This document shows positions 192 through 28,831 of a stretch of DNA of 32,236 bases, one piece after another. Position 1 is the first letter of the stretch; each line of letters starts with the position of its first letter. A program made the position numbers and the translations under genes. The notes beneath the pieces were generated by a model. The model made no database searches. It was not told the DNA's origin and worked only from the letters and a program-made list of their open reading frames with translations. The stretch covers positions 1-32,236 of the forward strand of contig JAJFFJ010000097.1 of the NCBI GenBank assembly GCA_021776685.1, in the 5' to 3' direction. The DNA comes from Alphaproteobacteria bacterium. GTDB taxonomy: Bacteria; Pseudomonadota; Alphaproteobacteria; Bin65.

Positions 192-2432
192 ATGACCGAT
201 AGCAGCATGACCGGGAACAACATGACCAAGCCAGACCAGAATGGGCAGGACCTGACTAATCAGGACCTGATTGACCAAGTCTTGACTGAACAAGACGGGC
301 GCCCGTCGCGTCGGGAAGCACTTCAGGTTTTCGCGGCCGCCGGTGGCGGCCTGATGATTGGCTATGCCCTGCCAGGCACTGCCGCAGCGCGCATCCTGTC
401 ACCGTTTGACAAGACCGCATCGGACACCGCCCGCCTGCATGCCTACATTCGTATTTCCCCGGACAACAAGGTCGAAATTGTTTGCGGCAAGTCGGAAATG
501 GGTCAGGGCGCGCTCACCGGCTACGCCCAGGTGGTCGGCGACGAGCTGGATTGTGCCTGGGATGACATCACCGTTGTCCCGTCCCCGGTTCACCCGGTCT
601 ATGGCATCCCGCCTTACGGTTTCATGATTACCGGCGGGTCCACCACCATCCGCGCGCACTGGATGCAATTGCGCAAGGCCGGCGCCGCCGCACGGCATAT
701 CCTGCGGCAGGCGGCTGCGAAGAAATGGAAGGTTCCACTTGCACAGGTGCGCACCGAAGCAGGCCGCCTGACCGGCCCTGGGGGCCGGAAAGCCACCTAT
801 GGCGATTTCGCTGACGCTGCCGCGAAACTCACGACGCCAAAAAACACCCCACTCAAACCCAAGTCCCAGCGGACGATGATCGGCAAACCGCTCAAGCGGG
901 TCGACACCGCGGAGAAGGTCAACGGCACCGCCAAATACGGCATGGATGTGCGCCTGCCCGGCATGCTGACGGCGGTGATCGCATTTCCGCCGGATATCGG
1001 TGGCAAAATGGGCAAGATCGACGACAGCGCGGCGCTGAAGGTCCCCGGCGTCCGACAGGTGGTGAAGATCCGCGCGGGCGTCGCCATCGTTGCAGATCAC
1101 TACTGGGCAGCGGTCAAGGGCCGGGAGGCGCTGAAAGTCGACTGGCAGCCCGGGCCGTTTGCCAAGCTCGACAGCGATGGGGTTCGCCGCTCCTACACCA
1201 AAGCGCTCGAGAAAAAAGGTAGGCTTGCAGAGACACGCGGCGACACGGCCAAAGCGCCCGCCGCCAAGACCCTCAACATGGACTTTGAGCAACCGTTCCT
1301 CGCCCAGGCCTGTATGGAACCCATGAACTGCACCGTCCAGATCACGCCGCAGGGTGCGGAGATCTGGGCGCCGATCCAGTCGCAAACCATCGCGCAGCAG
1401 ACTGTTGCTGCCGTCACCGGACTGCCGCCCAAGAAGGTGAAGATCAACACCATGCTGCTGGGCGGCGGATTTGGCCGCCGGTCGGCGCCTGACTTCGTCG
1501 TCAATGCGACCGAGATTGCGAAAGCTGTGTCCGGGCCCGTGCGTCTGGTTTACTCGCGCGAGGACGACATGCGTGGGGCCTTCTACCGTCCCTTCAGCAT
1601 GACCCGGGTGAAGGCCAAGATCGGCGACGACAAGAAACTCAGTGCCCTCGAGATTCGCGTCGCTGTTGCTTCAGTGGCGAAATGGACACGGTTCAAGCCC
1701 CTGCTCCGCCCTGACGGCATCGACAGTCAGACCGTTGAGGGTTTCCATGACCTGCCCTATGCAATTCCAAACCTGAAGGTGGAATGGGTGGAGCATGATC
1801 TGGGCATTCCAATCTGGTTCTGGCGGTCCGTGGGCGCATCTCACAATCCGTTCGTGTTGGAAAGCGCCATAGACGAGGTCGCTCACGCCTCGGGACAGGA
1901 CCCTTACCAATTCCGGCGTGCGATGCTGACCGCCAAACCGCGCCACCGCGCCGTACTCGACCGTGCGGCGAAAGAGGCTGGCTGGACGCGTGCGCCGGCG
2001 AAAGGTGTCGCCCGCGGCATTGCACTGGTGGAATCCTTCGGGAGCATTTGCGCCCAGGTGGCCGAAGTACGCATGGACGCCGGCGACCTCAAAGTCGAAC
2101 GGATAACCTGCGTGATCGATTGTGGCGTCGCGGTAAATCCACAGCAGATCGTCGCGCAGATGGAAGGCAACATCGCCTACGGCCTGTCTGCCCTGCTTGA
2201 TGGCAAGATAACCTTGAAAAATGGCCGGCCGGAGCAAGATAACTTTGACAGTTACCTTCCCCTGCGTATGAACGAGATGCCTCAGGTCGACGTGCATATC
2301 ATTGAAGGCGCGGCCGTTCCGGGCGGCGTCGGTGAGCCGGGTCTTCCACCCCTGCTGCCCGCTGTTGCCAATGCCGTCTTCGCGCTCACCGGCAAACGTC
2401 ATCGCCAACTGCCCCTGAGGAATAGTGGATAG
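192..2432 (+). CDS. Molybdopterin-binding large subunit, isoquinoline 1-oxidoreductase beta-like (xanthine dehydrogenase family)
   Basis: This 746-residue protein has the usual length of the single-chain IorB-type molybdopterin subunit. Residues 39-66 carry SRREAL followed by a hydrophobic stretch ending in a small-residue cleavage region, a twin-arginine signal, so the folded cofactor-loaded enzyme is probably exported. Molybdopterin-contact motifs include GGGFGRR and, near the C terminus, GGVGEPG, whose Glu is the expected catalytic base. Such enzymes hydroxylate N-heterocycles or oxidise aldehydes with water as the oxygen source. It follows the (2Fe-2S) subunit and overlaps the cytochrome c gene by 8 bases, giving a complete electron route. 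Residues 19-33 form an odd pentapeptide repeat. ATGs at 207 and 222 are alternative starts. The substrate is unknown. Confidence 0.93.
246..290 (+). repeat. Three imperfect 15-bp tandem units near the 5' end of the molybdopterin subunit gene
   Basis: Units 246-260, 261-275 and 276-290 share the pattern CAGGACCTGA followed by a variable end; the third is more diverged. They keep the reading frame and encode [10 protein letters not shown] and QVLTE just ahead of the twin-arginine motif. This looks like slippage-type expansion in the poorly constrained leader of a Tat substrate. Confidence 0.6.
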
Positions 2433-24583: not shown

Positions 24584-26278
24584 TCAGCCGACGCAGCAGG
24601 GACAGCTTGGGCCGGCGGACATGGCCATGCCCTGAGAAAGGCTGATGGACTGAACCGGCAGGGACGTCGCCGGTGGCCGCGCGTCGAACCGACCTCCTCC
24701 GCCGCCAGCGTGCGCTTGGCCGTGACGGTTGCCCATCACCTCACCCGCGCCGATACCGGTGATGATTTCGAACTCGTGGGCGGCAACTGTGCTGTCCAGC
24801 TCGATGGTCGTGCCATCCACCTGGCGCCATTTGTCGGTGGGGGCGCCATCGCAGCGAACGGCGACCAGCGACGCATCAGGCAATTGCGTGACGCGGAATC
24901 GGGTGTCGCCACCTGCCTTGCTGCTGTCCGCCGCGTAGGTGGTGATACGCAGGACGCCCTGCGCCAAATCATTCCAGGCGCGCGATATGCCGACGGTCGG
25001 AAAATCCACCCCTTCCACGGTCGGCTGGCTGAATTTCTCAAGGTTCGGATTGCGGAACAGATTGGTCCAGGCGCCAGGTGAGCCAACCTCGCCCATGGCC
25101 AGCAGCGCGCTCAGCTGGCCCCGCGGCCAATCCTCGCCAAACTGGAACCACCAGCCGAATTCATCATTGGTCGGACCAAAGCGCCGGGGCTCGTAATGTT
25201 CCTCCGCATAGGCATTCAACTTGCCCAGGGTGACGTCATCGCCATATTCCCGGGCCAGCGCCACGGTTACCGCCAGGAAACGCGGATCGTTAGGCGCACG
25301 CACCTGCTTCGCCGGGTCGTTCCAGCCGAGCTTGTTGACCGCACCATGGTAGAGCGCCTCTCCCAACGCCGGGTCCTGCGCCATCATATAGAGACACACA
25401 CCCAGTCCGCCGCCGGGGCCAAGGGTCTGCTTATGCTCGATGATCGGGTCGTAGTAGAAGCACGTCCATTCCAGCTCGCCCTTGTCATTGAAGCCGAAAT
25501 AGTCGTCGCGCACATTCTCGAGCCACTGATGAAAGACCTGATGGGTGTCCTTCTTGAAGATGGCGTCATAGAGCTGAAGACCCAGTCCCGCCGCACTCAG
25601 ACAATAGGGCCAGACCTTGGTATTCTCGCAATGCAGGCCCGCCGGATGGCGCGCCCATTGCTCCGCCAGATGCTCGGTGACGCCATGCTGCGTCCACTCG
25701 AACCGCGCCCGATCTATGCCCGCCACCTGGAACGGCTGGGTCCAACGGTCTTCGCCTGAAACATAGGCGTGAAGCGACATGGTCAGGTTGAGCCAGCCCT
25801 TGAAGAAAAGGTTGCCTTCAGCGCCGATCGGGTCCGGTTGCAGACCCCAGGGCTCCACGCCATTGGCGCACCAACCGGGCGTGTCATATTCGCCGACCAG
25901 ATGGGGCGGGATCAGCAGGTCGATCCATTCCTGCGGATAGTCGCCCCGCCGCGGATCGGGGCCGATGTGGGTGATCCAGTCAATTGCCGCCCAGTAGGTG
26001 AGATGCCGTTCGACCAACTGCTCAAGAATGGTTGCATAGACCTCGCGCCAGGCGGGCGTGCGATCCGCCATGATACCCAATGCATAGCTGGATTCGGACA
26101 GATCAAAGCGCGGGAAATCGCACATCGGCTCGGTGGAGGACTGGTCCCACCAGGGATGCGGCGTGCCGTCCTCCGACCAGTCGTCCGGCGTAGTCGCTTT
26201 GCGCCACAGAAAACGCAGCCAGCCGCGCGCACGGTCGTTTAGTGCAGGCGCGAAACCATCAGATACAGTTTCAGCCAT
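24584..26278 (-). CDS. Linalool dehydratase/isomerase (LDI)-like protein
   Basis: The protein (564 residues) is longer than LinD of Castellaniella defragrans. Comparing with LinD from memory, GNLFFKGWLNLTMSLHAYVSG (residues 155-175) matches its NIMYKGHLNL region, and GLHCENTKVWPYC gives Cys217 and Cys226, nine residues apart as in the LinD catalytic pair Cys171/Cys180. RFDLSESSYALG matches the preceding helix, and Asp45 may match Asp39. The LinD His129 position (KGH) reads Trp162 here. The fold is an alpha/alpha barrel. LinD is secreted; no signal peptide is visible here. The C-terminal third has extra beta-type sequence and ends in SCPCCVG. A lyase or isomerase on a terpenoid or other alkenol is possible, but the His change argues for different chemistry. 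Confidence 0.7.
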   Translation of the reverse strand: MAETVSDGFAPALNDRARGWLRFLWRKATTPDDWSEDGTPHPWWDQSSTEPMCDFPRFDLSESSYALGIMADRTPAWREVYATILEQLVERHLTYWAAIDWITHIGPDPRRGDYPQEWIDLLIPPHLVGEYDTPGWCANGVEPWGLQPDPIGAEGNLFFKGWLNLTMSLHAYVSGEDRWTQPFQVAGIDRARFEWTQHGVTEHLAEQWARHPAGLHCENTKVWPYCLSAAGLGLQLYDAIFKKDTHQVFHQWLENVRDDYFGFNDKGELEWTCFYYDPIIEHKQTLGPGGGLGVCLYMMAQDPALGEALYHGAVNKLGWNDPAKQVRAPNDPRFLAVTVALAREYGDDVTLGKLNAYAEEHYEPRRFGPTNDEFGWWFQFGEDWPRGQLSALLAMGEVGSPGAWTNLFRNPNLEKFSQPTVEGVDFPTVGISRAWNDLAQGVLRITTYAADSSKAGGDTRFRVTQLPDASLVAVRCDGAPTDKWRQVDGTTIELDSTVAAHEFEIITGIGAGEVMGNRHGQAHAGGGGGRFDARPPATSLPVQSISLSQGMAMSAGPSCPCCVG

Positions 26279-26411: not shown

Positions 26412-27245
26412 TTAGCGTCGTCCGCAGGGCCGCGCTTTGTGGATGCAGGAATACCGCTCTTCACCCTGCAGGCGTTTGCTGCACCGGTAACCAGCGCTCC
26501 AGATTAGGTTTGGGTCGCTATAGGTTGCGCCATGGCGCCGTCGCGCTTCCACCAGCCAGGCCTCCAATGCCCGAAGTTGCGCCTGCTGTTTGGTGCGGCC
26601 GTTTCGGCCGCGAATAGCGAGAGCCGGCTGGCAGTTCAGGCCGGGCGGCGGCGCGTCCGTGATGCGATAGAGTGACCAGGCGCCGCGCACCCGATCAGCC
26701 TGTGCGGCAACGCGCGGAACATGGCAGTAGAGCGTCAGAGTTGCGGGCTGGATCGCATCCTGGTCACGGCATTTGCCGGTTCCGCCAATCTTGTTGATGT
26801 AGATGCGAAAGCCTTGAATGACGCGCTTGTCGGCTTTCAACTCATTTACGGTAGGACGAAAGGGACGGCCCAGGCGTGGACGCGAACAGATAAATTCCTT
26901 CAGCGCCGTGCGCGGCTCGGTAAATACAAATCCCGACAGGCCTCGGCCATAACGGCTGGAATCGTGCAATATGCGAGGTTTGTGGGCGCAAAGCCTGGGA
27001 ATAGAATTTCGGTTGGTTAGCAACATGCCACGGACGCATTTAAGCACGACCAGATTTTGCCTCCTGTTGGATTGGCTGGCGAAGAGATATCGCGCCCATG
27101 ACCAAAACCGGGATCGTGGCAGTTCGGTAGGATTTAGCCCTGCACCCACCATAATTACACGCAAATGACATTTTCGATATTCAGCCGCCGAAACCGCGCC
27201 GGCAATTGCCGGCAGCAATGCCAGCCCCAGTATAAATTTTTTCAC
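26412..27245 (-). CDS. Secreted cysteine-rich protein of unknown function (paralog A, with C-terminal extra domain)
   Basis: I do not recognise the family. The protein (277 residues) has a Sec signal (MKKFILGLALLPAIAGAVSA) and ten mature-region cysteines. The first six (26, 70, 86, 120, 159, 174) have exactly the spacing of the six in paralog B at 27261-27878. Shared blocks are ELPRSRF and the stretch from YIN through GG.GKC to LTLYC. Residues about 209-277 form an added domain with four more cysteines and the pattern YRC...YSC...ARPC. The protein is basic and probably periplasmic or extracellular with several disulfides. It follows paralog B by 15 bases on the same strand. Confidence 0.75.
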   Translation of the reverse strand: MKKFILGLALLPAIAGAVSAAEYRKCHLRVIMVGAGLNPTELPRSRFWSWARYLFASQSNRRQNLVVLKCVRGMLLTNRNSIPRLCAHKPRILHDSSRYGRGLSGFVFTEPRTALKEFICSRPRLGRPFRPTVNELKADKRVIQGFRIYINKIGGTGKCRDQDAIQPATLTLYCHVPRVAAQADRVRGAWSLYRITDAPPPGLNCQPALAIRGRNGRTKQQAQLRALEAWLVEARRRHGATYSDPNLIWSAGYRCSKRLQGEERYSCIHKARPCGRR

Positions 27246-27260: not shown

Positions 27261-27878
27261 TCATCGCTCACTTTTCCGCACGACCCGATAAAGCACCCAG
27301 CCGTCGCTTGTTCGTCGATCTTTCAGGCCGGCGGCATCCCGCGGTGTCCGGCAATACAGTGTCAGGGATTTCATCTGGACGATGGTATTGTCTGGGCACT
27401 TTCCAGGACCGCCCACCTGGTTGATATAAACTCTAGCTGCTTTGATGCGGCGACGGTCCATAGCCGCATCCTTTTCTGGCGCATTGGCGGCGGCGGCCAG
27501 GCCTGCCTTGGCGCAAACGGCCGCCTTGAGCGCTTGTCGTCCGAGGGTGAATTTAAACGCCACCATGCCGGCCGCGATCTTGGTTGGGTCATTGAGCGCT
27601 GCTGGTTTCTCATGACAGTATTTTGGCACGCGCCGATAGTTGCCGAACACCATCGTCAACGCGCAATAGCGTGTGTGGTTGGCAAGGCCCACCCGGGCAT
27701 TCCTGGCGGTATCGGCCCGCGACCAGGCGGTAAAACGGGACCGCGGCAACTCAACGGGGTTGATGCCCTCACCGGCCACCACGATTCGCAACTGGCACCT
27801 GTTGAGTTCCAGCGCATGCGAGATTTGGGGCGCTATGCAAGCGGCGGCCCCGCACAGAAGGAGAAATAGCCGCGTCAT
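27261..27878 (-). CDS. Secreted cysteine-rich protein of unknown function (paralog B)
   Basis: The 205-residue protein has a signal peptide (MTRLFLLLCGAAACIAPQISHA) and six mature-region cysteines at 28, 72, 88, 122, 161 and 176, the same spacing as in paralog A with a constant offset of two. It ends where the added domain of paralog A begins. ATG 27878 is chosen because it starts the signal peptide and AGAGG lies upstream; the frame is open to 27908. It starts 26 bases after the end of the dehydrogenase gene and may share its transcript. No function can be assigned. Confidence 0.75.
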   Translation of the reverse strand: MTRLFLLLCGAAACIAPQISHALELNRCQLRIVVAGEGINPVELPRSRFTAWSRADTARNARVGLANHTRYCALTMVFGNYRRVPKYCHEKPAALNDPTKIAAGMVAFKFTLGRQALKAAVCAKAGLAAAANAPEKDAAMDRRRIKAARVYINQVGGPGKCPDNTIVQMKSLTLYCRTPRDAAGLKDRRTSDGWVLYRVVRKSER

Positions 27879-27904
27879 TGACCTTGTCCTCTTAGTCAGA
27901 ATTG

Positions 27905-28831
27905 TCATTCGCTATCCATGATCTCCGCGATGCGTTCAGGCGGTATACGCACGGCAACCCCCGCACGCTCCTCCTGCAGCTTCATAGGCGCGCGCGAATC
28001 CTGATCGGCCCAGCCCCGCTCCATACCGGCATTCAACTCCGTGAGCGTCATTTCCGCCAGCGCCATGGGAACGTCGAATTCACGGCCCAGCTCAACCGCC
28101 AGGCGCACGTCCTTGGTCGCGAGTTTGAGAGTGAAGTCCGGCGGCTCGAACTTGCCGGGCAAATACTGGATGCCCATACGGTCGAAGGTGCGGGCGCGGC
28201 CTAGGGCGCATTTCCGGATCGCCGACCACATGGATTCAGCATCAAGCCCGGCGGCGACGCCCATGGTGAAACACTCGGCCAGCGCCGTCTGGATCATGTA
28301 ACCACTCAGGTTGTGGACCAGTTTTGCGATCGACCCGGCGCCGATCGGACCCACATAGATCGGCTGATCTGCCATCGCCTGCAACACCGGTAGGCCGCGG
28401 ATGAACGCGGCTTCATCGCCGCCAACCAGCACCGCCAGTTTGCCGGATCGCGCGCCCTGGGGACCACCGCTGACCGGGGCATCCAGCAAAGTCACGCCTT
28501 TCTCCGCCATCTCGTCATGCAGGCGCCTGACCTCGGTGGGTGCGTTGGTGGAAAGATCGAAGACCAGCAGGCCCGCGCCCGCGCCGTCGGCAATGCCGCC
28601 CGTGCCCGTTAGCACCGCCGCCACCTCCGCCGGCCCCGGCAGGGACAGCAGCACGACATCGGACCACGACGCCACCGCCGCCGGATTATCCGCCCACGTG
28701 GCGCCGCTATCCATGAGGGCGCCCGCTGCCGGGGGATTCACATCGTGGACGACCAAGTCGAAACCGCCCGCTTGTATGTTCATCGCCATGGGCGCGCCCA
28801 TGGTGCCAAGACCGATAAACCCGACTTTCAT
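27905..28831 (-). CDS. NAD(P)-dependent 3-hydroxyisobutyrate dehydrogenase-family oxidoreductase
   Basis: The protein (308 residues) is a beta-hydroxyacid dehydrogenase: Rossmann GFIGLGTMGAPMA at residues 4-16, substrate motif DAPVSGGPQGARSG at 117-130, and catalytic Lys170 in GAGSIAKLVHN. The helical C-terminal domain follows. Family members oxidise 3-hydroxyisobutyrate, tartronate semialdehyde (in reverse), succinic semialdehyde or similar small hydroxyacids. It is divergent from the amidohydrolase gene with 59 bases between starts. The substrate is not decided by sequence. Confidence 0.92.
   Translation of the reverse strand: MKVGFIGLGTMGAPMAMNIQAGGFDLVVHDVNPPAAGALMDSGATWADNPAAVASWSDVVLLSLPGPAEVAAVLTGTGGIADGAGAGLLVFDLSTNAPTEVRRLHDEMAEKGVTLLDAPVSGGPQGARSGKLAVLVGGDEAAFIRGLPVLQAMADQPIYVGPIGAGSIAKLVHNLSGYMIQTALAECFTMGVAAGLDAESMWSAIRKCALGRARTFDRMGIQYLPGKFEPPDFTLKLATKDVRLAVELGREFDVPMALAEMTLTELNAGMERGWADQDSRAPMKLQEERAGVAVRIPPERIAEIMDSE

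Follow-up and report, generated by a model that had tools for sequence, protein, structure and literature searches.

Predicted selenocysteine forms and a conserved cysteine pair in a subfamily of proteins with the linalool dehydratase/isomerase fold

The window analysed here, a stretch of 32,236 nucleotides from an alphaproteobacterial contig, carries on its minus strand a gene that had been predicted, from the sequence alone, to encode a relative of linalool dehydratase/isomerase (LDI) with the catalytic cysteine pair kept and the catalytic histidine replaced by tryptophan. This raises the question of whether the protein belongs to the LDI family and, if so, what its departures from LinD, the enzyme of Castellaniella defragrans (EC 4.2.1.127), say about its chemistry. 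The open reading frame has an ATG start and no internal stops, and the sequence features named by the original prediction are found in its translation: two cysteines nine residues apart (C217 and C226), W162 within NLFFKGW, the C-terminal end SCPCCVG and the absence of a signal peptide. The gene and its parts are as follows.

24584..26278, minus strand, LDI-like gene in its Cys form, an open reading frame of 564 amino acids (Pfam Ldi, LinD profile match, fold model)
25031..26278, minus strand, predicted alpha/alpha barrel of the LDI fold, residues 1-416 (AlphaFold2, structural match to 5i3t_E)
24743..25021, minus strand, predicted C-terminal beta-sandwich domain, residues about 420-512 (structure models)
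24587..24730, minus strand, predicted disordered C-terminal linker and tail, residues 517-564 (pLDDT)
24593..24604, minus strand, CPCC motif, residues 559-562 (CxCC conservation near the C-terminus)
25793..25795, minus strand, codon of W162, at the position of LinD H128 (HMM alignments)
25631..25633, minus strand, codon of H216, the best-conserved histidine of the subfamily at 84% (conservation among subfamily members)
25628..25630, minus strand, codon TGC of C217, at the position of LinD C170 (invariant in 81 members)
25601..25603, minus strand, codon TGT of C226, at the position of LinD C179 (UGA in 19 related genes)

The assignment to the LDI family holds, with Pfam, profile and structure matches far above chance. 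Ldi (PF18566) is the sole Pfam family matched by the window protein (3.1e-19, 70.1 bits, curated cut-off 26.1). A search of solved structures with the window protein alone gave an E-value of only 0.002 and profiles were therefore used; a profile of 51 members matches the LinD PDB chains at 6.1e-13. Counted along the LinD chain alignment, W162, C217 and C226 align with H128, C170 and C179, so that the comparison with LinD in the original prediction was correct. Among solved structures, the AlphaFold2 model, built with a 51-sequence alignment (pLDDT 89.3, pTM 0.87), matches LinD far better than anything else (5i3t_E at Z 34.4, with rmsd 2.4 A and 327 residues aligned), the best non-LDI chain being an unrelated alpha/alpha barrel at Z 19.4. 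Superposition on LinD places the modelled window protein inside the LDI fold, and we conclude from the model that it is an LDI-fold protein.

The two proteins are only about 20% identical. They share the alpha/alpha barrel, the aligned cysteine pair, a DPI...N..(Y/F)KG segment and a CE at the first cysteine, but the window protein has tryptophan for H128, an extra beta domain, a CxCC tail and no signal peptide, and some of its relatives, unlike LinD, have a predicted selenocysteine (Sec). The key active-site residues of LinD are H128, Y44, D38, C179 and C170 (PMC12455561). R57 and D59, which are invariant in the subfamily, probably lie in the helix equivalent to that of LinD D38 and Y44, the LinD N-terminus being beyond the reach of the sequence alignments. 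The cysteines of the LinD capping disulfide (C48-C101) are not conserved; the subfamily keeps no cysteines outside the tail other than C217 and C226. No signal for export of the LinD type is present in the window protein, which is cytosolic in its organism, and Tat signals are found in 32 relatives from other clades. Because His128, the capping disulfide and export are all missing, the window protein is a member of the Ldi family but is not LinD.

The original prediction had also described a rare enzyme family. This is true of LinD itself, but the subfamily of the window protein is widespread, with relatives in eight phyla. A scan of contigs with a single sequence found no relatives, and a search at the protein level in 398 genomes of the phylum brought up the window gene only; a contig scan with a four-sequence alignment gave 106 matching stretches, of which 80 were kept. 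The motif CENTKxWxxC/U is present in all 80 fetched relatives, whose hosts include SAR86, Pseudomonadales, Acidobacteriota, Gemmatimonadota, Nitrospira, Streptomyces, Acidimicrobiales and Entotheonella. In the small order to which the window belongs, the gene is found in this genome alone, and its spread is therefore patchy. Across the 81 members C217, C226 (C or U), E218, N219, T220, K221, W223 and several aspartates are invariant. Other PF18566 proteins (e.g. L002, L003 and L094-L106) have a cysteine pair of the same spacing and an aromatic residue at the H128 position, but are of the CEPNWIYxxC type as against the CENTKxW of the subfamily, and no UGA form was seen among them. The proposal of a distinct, longer LDI subfamily is supported, and a cysteine tail is conserved in it. 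One relative, L028 (CAMATU010000031.1), clusters with Nitrospira in the tree but is titled as a Klebsiella pneumoniae MAG, a title that is probably mistaken.

The replacement of histidine by tryptophan, which had been taken as the telling feature of the protein, proves to be ordinary. Position 162 is W in 64 members of the subfamily, F in 16, D in one and H in none of the 81, and in some 25 further Ldi-family proteins, drawn from Alphaproteobacteria and actinomycetes, F, Y, W or R stands at the H128 position. Among the sequences read, the LinD histidine is therefore an exception and not a hallmark of the family. A substitute histidine was also sought, and none is conserved in more than 84% of the subfamily; the residue that reaches this value, H216, is otherwise mostly Gln. 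We therefore reject the possibility that another histidine takes the place of H128 across the subfamily.

The position of C226 is a stronger pointer to a different reaction than Trp162. In seven fetched genes an in-frame TGA lies exactly at the C226 codon, and full similarity resumes past it. When the class to which one of the Acidimicrobiales genomes belongs and the order that holds the alphaproteobacterial genome were searched as well, the number of distinct UGA genes rose to 19, with hosts in the Acidimicrobiia, Entotheonella and one alphaproteobacterial order. A hairpin lies directly downstream of the UGA in all 19, with six of six pairs and the loop GGUCU at +21; at least five stem pairs are found in only 2 of 74 Cys genes. 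Stem pair 17-29 varies among the UGA genes, being C-G in some and G-C in others, and the reading frame past the UGA is open and conserved over about 280 residues. The seven genomes in which UGA forms were first found all have selA, and tRNA-Sec is over the cut-off in six of them, the seventh assembly being small (1.9 Mb); selA is absent from Cys-form genomes of Streptomyces, SAR86 and Nitrospira. Known prokaryotic selenoproteins likewise have a UGA at a conserved cysteine, Cys homologues, a SECIS-like hairpin, and SelA with tRNA-Sec, and we infer from sequence that the relatives with UGA at C226 encode selenocysteine. Metagenome-assembled genomes are the source of many of the contigs, and the UGA forms might be read as pseudogenes or assembly errors in which selenocysteine is not used. 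This is hardly credible for 19 distinct genes with UGA at exactly one essential codon, in which the frame is open and conserved and the hairpin is paired in all, and which occur with paralogues and with the Sec machinery. Up to four Sec-LDI paralogues are found in one genome, and three genomes of the alphaproteobacterial order (G752, G1463 and G1464) have at least three each, suggesting diversified substrates.

The Sec forms make up a sister clade, and among the first 77 sequences a single change on the tree accounts for the distribution of Sec. At the catalytic position the window gene has TGT, not UGA; its genome nevertheless has selA and tRNA-Sec. We considered a SECIS remnant in the window gene, which has GGUCU at +21, and rejected it, the stem being unpaired and the loop letters encoding conserved residues. 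Unlike the 119 families in a 2026 inventory of prokaryotic selenoproteins, none of which is an Ldi/PF18566 protein (PMC13188914), the UGA genes encode LDI proteins. NCBIfam has no model for LDI selenoprotein forms, and a literature search, which covered few subscription papers, found none joining selenoproteins with LDI and none mentioning PF18566. The relatives therefore appear, as far as sequence can indicate, to include a selenoprotein form with the LDI fold, a non-thioredoxin fold, that has apparently gone unlisted so far.

Beyond the barrel, the C-terminal beta-sandwich has a weak likeness to glycosidase accessory beta domains (Z 9.0, rmsd 3.0, 86 residues aligned), and its matches are to common arrangements of accessory domains only. 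The part that follows has pLDDT below 50 in the AlphaFold2 model at residues 517-559 and 561-564. CxCC is found within the last 30 residues in 60 of the 69 complete Cys members, mostly 0-4 residues from the end, and in none of the seven Sec members tested, a contrast with few evolutionary events behind it. It occurs nowhere else in the same proteins (45,302 residues). The tail is conserved but its linker is not. Cys members from actinomycetes are mostly without the tail, and it follows that tail and Sec are not strict alternatives, and that the tail is not essential to the chemistry.

As to gene neighbourhoods, the window encodes a Rieske oxygenase, a branched-chain ABC transporter, amidohydrolases, a DsbA-like protein, an alcohol dehydrogenase, VOC proteins and a hydroxyacid-type dehydrogenase, and no linalool or geraniol pathway genes were recognised adjoining the LDI-like gene. 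An Amidohydro_2 protein of the window, encoded 14 kb from the LDI-like gene, shares 47-48% identity with the Amidohydro_2 proteins next to three Sec genes. Neighbours of the Sec forms encode GST, SDR, FAH, a LigB ring-opening dioxygenase, LamB/YcsF, a thioesterase and an amidohydrolase, and the Cys form of SAR86 has the order acyl-CoA ligase - GST - LDI - SDR. Neighbours vary greatly among clades, and to judge from these genes most neighbourhoods outside the mer loci look catabolic.

The mer loci are nine in number, all gammaproteobacterial, and have the co-directional order LDI - merP - merT. In each of the nine, UGA replaces the first metal-binding cysteine of MerP (NMT-U-xGC).

L037:3611-3955, predicted Sec-merP, directly downstream of the LDI-like gene (also in L047, L048, L051, L060, L062, L065, L081 and L083)

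A hairpin of 5 bp follows the merP UGA in 9/9, and selA is present in seven of the nine genomes. The LDI proteins of these loci all have Tat signals (9/9) and would therefore share the periplasm with MerP. MerT matches PF02411 at 6e-20, and MerP is related to, but below the cut-offs of, the NCBIfam models for MerP, the MerT/CopZ selenoprotein and the UxxU metal-binding protein. The genes beyond the triad differ among the loci read. The placement of the LDI gene in a merP-merT operon suggests a role related to metal, at least there. In tblastn searches MerP and MerT are found beside the LDI gene in the nine triad loci only, and neither in the window nor in other relatives, and MerA is over the cut-off in none of 16 genomes, that of the window included (best 397 bits, against 454). 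Because we saw mer genes in a single clade and MerA over the cut-off is absent, we give little weight to mercury resistance as the role of the whole family. The MerT frame at L065:10163-10531 has further in-frame stops by tblastn, and may be a pseudogene, an error or a case of recoding.

What reaction might the subfamily catalyse? At neutral pH a selenol is in the ionised state; it makes a better nucleophile than a thiol, and a poorer acid. In LinD the Ala and Ser variants of C170 and C179 are folded and inactive. The authors connect this loss with a requirement for a thiol that can ionise, as serine would not near neutral pH; the mechanism itself is disputed between acid/base catalysis and a covalent thioterpene intermediate (PMC6600392). 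Our data point to real thiol or selenol chemistry at the C226 position, and make a reaction differing from that of LinD plausible. The reading that we favour, with a probability of roughly 0.45, is thiolate- or selenolate-dependent catalysis at C226 on an organic substrate, with C217, E218 and Asp as partners. C226 (or Sec), as an ionised thiolate or selenolate, would attack or otherwise activate the substrate together with C217, E218 and the invariant aspartates. Elimination, isomerisation or C-X cleavage of a small organic molecule, which need not be the substrate of LinD, would be the most likely reaction, and a lyase or isomerase the most likely enzyme. The flexible CxCC tail of most Cys forms may keep the active-site pair reduced, or may carry a ligand or metal towards the pair and away from it. 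We favour this reading because Sec at the position of C179 fits an ionised nucleophile and fits a neutral acid less, an argument from general selenol chemistry and not a test. It sits less easily with the nine merP-merT loci, which point to a metal role there, with the mostly tail-less actinomycete Cys forms and the differing neighbours among clades, and with the fact that the window gene itself is Cys, not Sec.

Those nine loci would be accounted for if the Cys/Sec pair cleaved an organomercurial-like compound by protonolysis, or bound a metal, and the CxCC tail passed on the metal, which in one clade would go first to periplasmic MerP and from there to MerT. The organomercurial lyase MerB carries out the protonolysis of organomercurials with its own cysteines; it and the Sao organometal selenoproteins likewise have a Cys (or Cys/Sec) pair as reactive centre, and the Sao system further resembles the present one in the C-terminal Cys-Cys that SaoC has by name and in the presence of Sec in metal-handling partners. 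They differ in family, the window protein matching Ldi alone in Pfam, and a metal substrate is hypothetical here. The co-directional order LDI - Sec-merP - merT amid differing flanking genes, the nine Tat-signal LDI proteins, the PF02411 match of MerT, the merP hairpin in 9/9 and selA in 7/9 all favour a soft-metal or organometal enzyme. We nevertheless consider it unlikely, since the triad turned up in a single gammaproteobacterial clade and not near the window gene, MerA is above the cut-off in no genome tested, most other neighbourhoods look catabolic and the MerP/MerT-like proteins may move another metal. Rather unlikely is a redox enzyme in which the pair would act as reductant of the substrate, for instance by reductively splitting off a leaving group, and the disulfide or selenylsulfide so formed would be reduced again by the CxCC tail or external thiols. 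Sec as a rule replaces redox-active Cys (PMC13188914), the tail is found in Cys forms and not in Sec forms, and GST adjoins the gene in SAR86 and at one Sec locus; but the LinD pair works reduced with no net redox, the actinomycete Cys forms mostly have no tail, and the Sec, tail-less and tailed clades represent few evolutionary events. A hydro-lyase or isomerase of the LinD kind, with an alkenol (terpenoid or otherwise) as substrate and two cysteines that do the acid/base catalysis without need of the histidine, would agree with the shared fold and cysteine pair, with the lack of conservation of the histidine across the wider Ldi family and with the catabolic neighbours. We judge it quite unlikely in view of the missing capping disulfide, the identity to LinD of only about 20%, the lack of recognised linalool or geraniol pathway genes beside the window gene, and a Sec at the second position that is unlike a neutral-thiol acid.

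The novelty thus rests with the relatives of the window gene: an apparently unlisted LDI selenoprotein form, a conserved CxCC tail and a Sec-MerP/MerT operon, which in one clade ties LDI-fold enzymes to Sec-containing MerP and to MerT. That they make up an unrecognised, partly Sec-dependent class of LDI-fold enzymes with non-LinD chemistry, by covalent thiolate or selenolate catalysis or by cleavage of a C-metal bond feeding Sec-MerP/MerT, is a tentative and on balance doubtful proposition; if true, the reaction would be new among selenoenzymes, and there might also be an organometal pathway independent of MerB. Because of the properties of the selenol given above, homologues with Sec in place of C179 offer a natural test of the disputed LinD mechanism: a selenol is a poor general acid, and if LinD uses its cysteines in acid/base catalysis the two chemistries may differ.

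Several genes near the LDI-like genes are recorded here as observations in their own right. Upstream of the LDI-like gene of the window, on the same strand, lie two tandem paralogues (36% identical), which match nothing in Pfam or NCBIfam and have N termini resembling signals.

26412..27245, minus strand, first paralogue
27261..27908, minus strand, second paralogue

Directly upstream of the LDI-like gene, often at about 40 bp, Nitrospira, actinomycetes and others encode a conserved protein some 200 amino acids long that matches no Pfam family (L028:4756-5367; also L029, L030, L032, L033, L042, L064, L067, L080 and L043). A calcineurin-like phosphoesterase of 703 amino acids lies beside Sec-LDI genes in two genomes (L137:5040-7151 and L142:6047-8158). 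At the edge of the window is a gene for a molybdopterin-binding subunit.

192..2432, plus strand, molybdopterin-binding subunit resembling aldehyde/isoquinoline oxidoreductases, with MoCoBD domains
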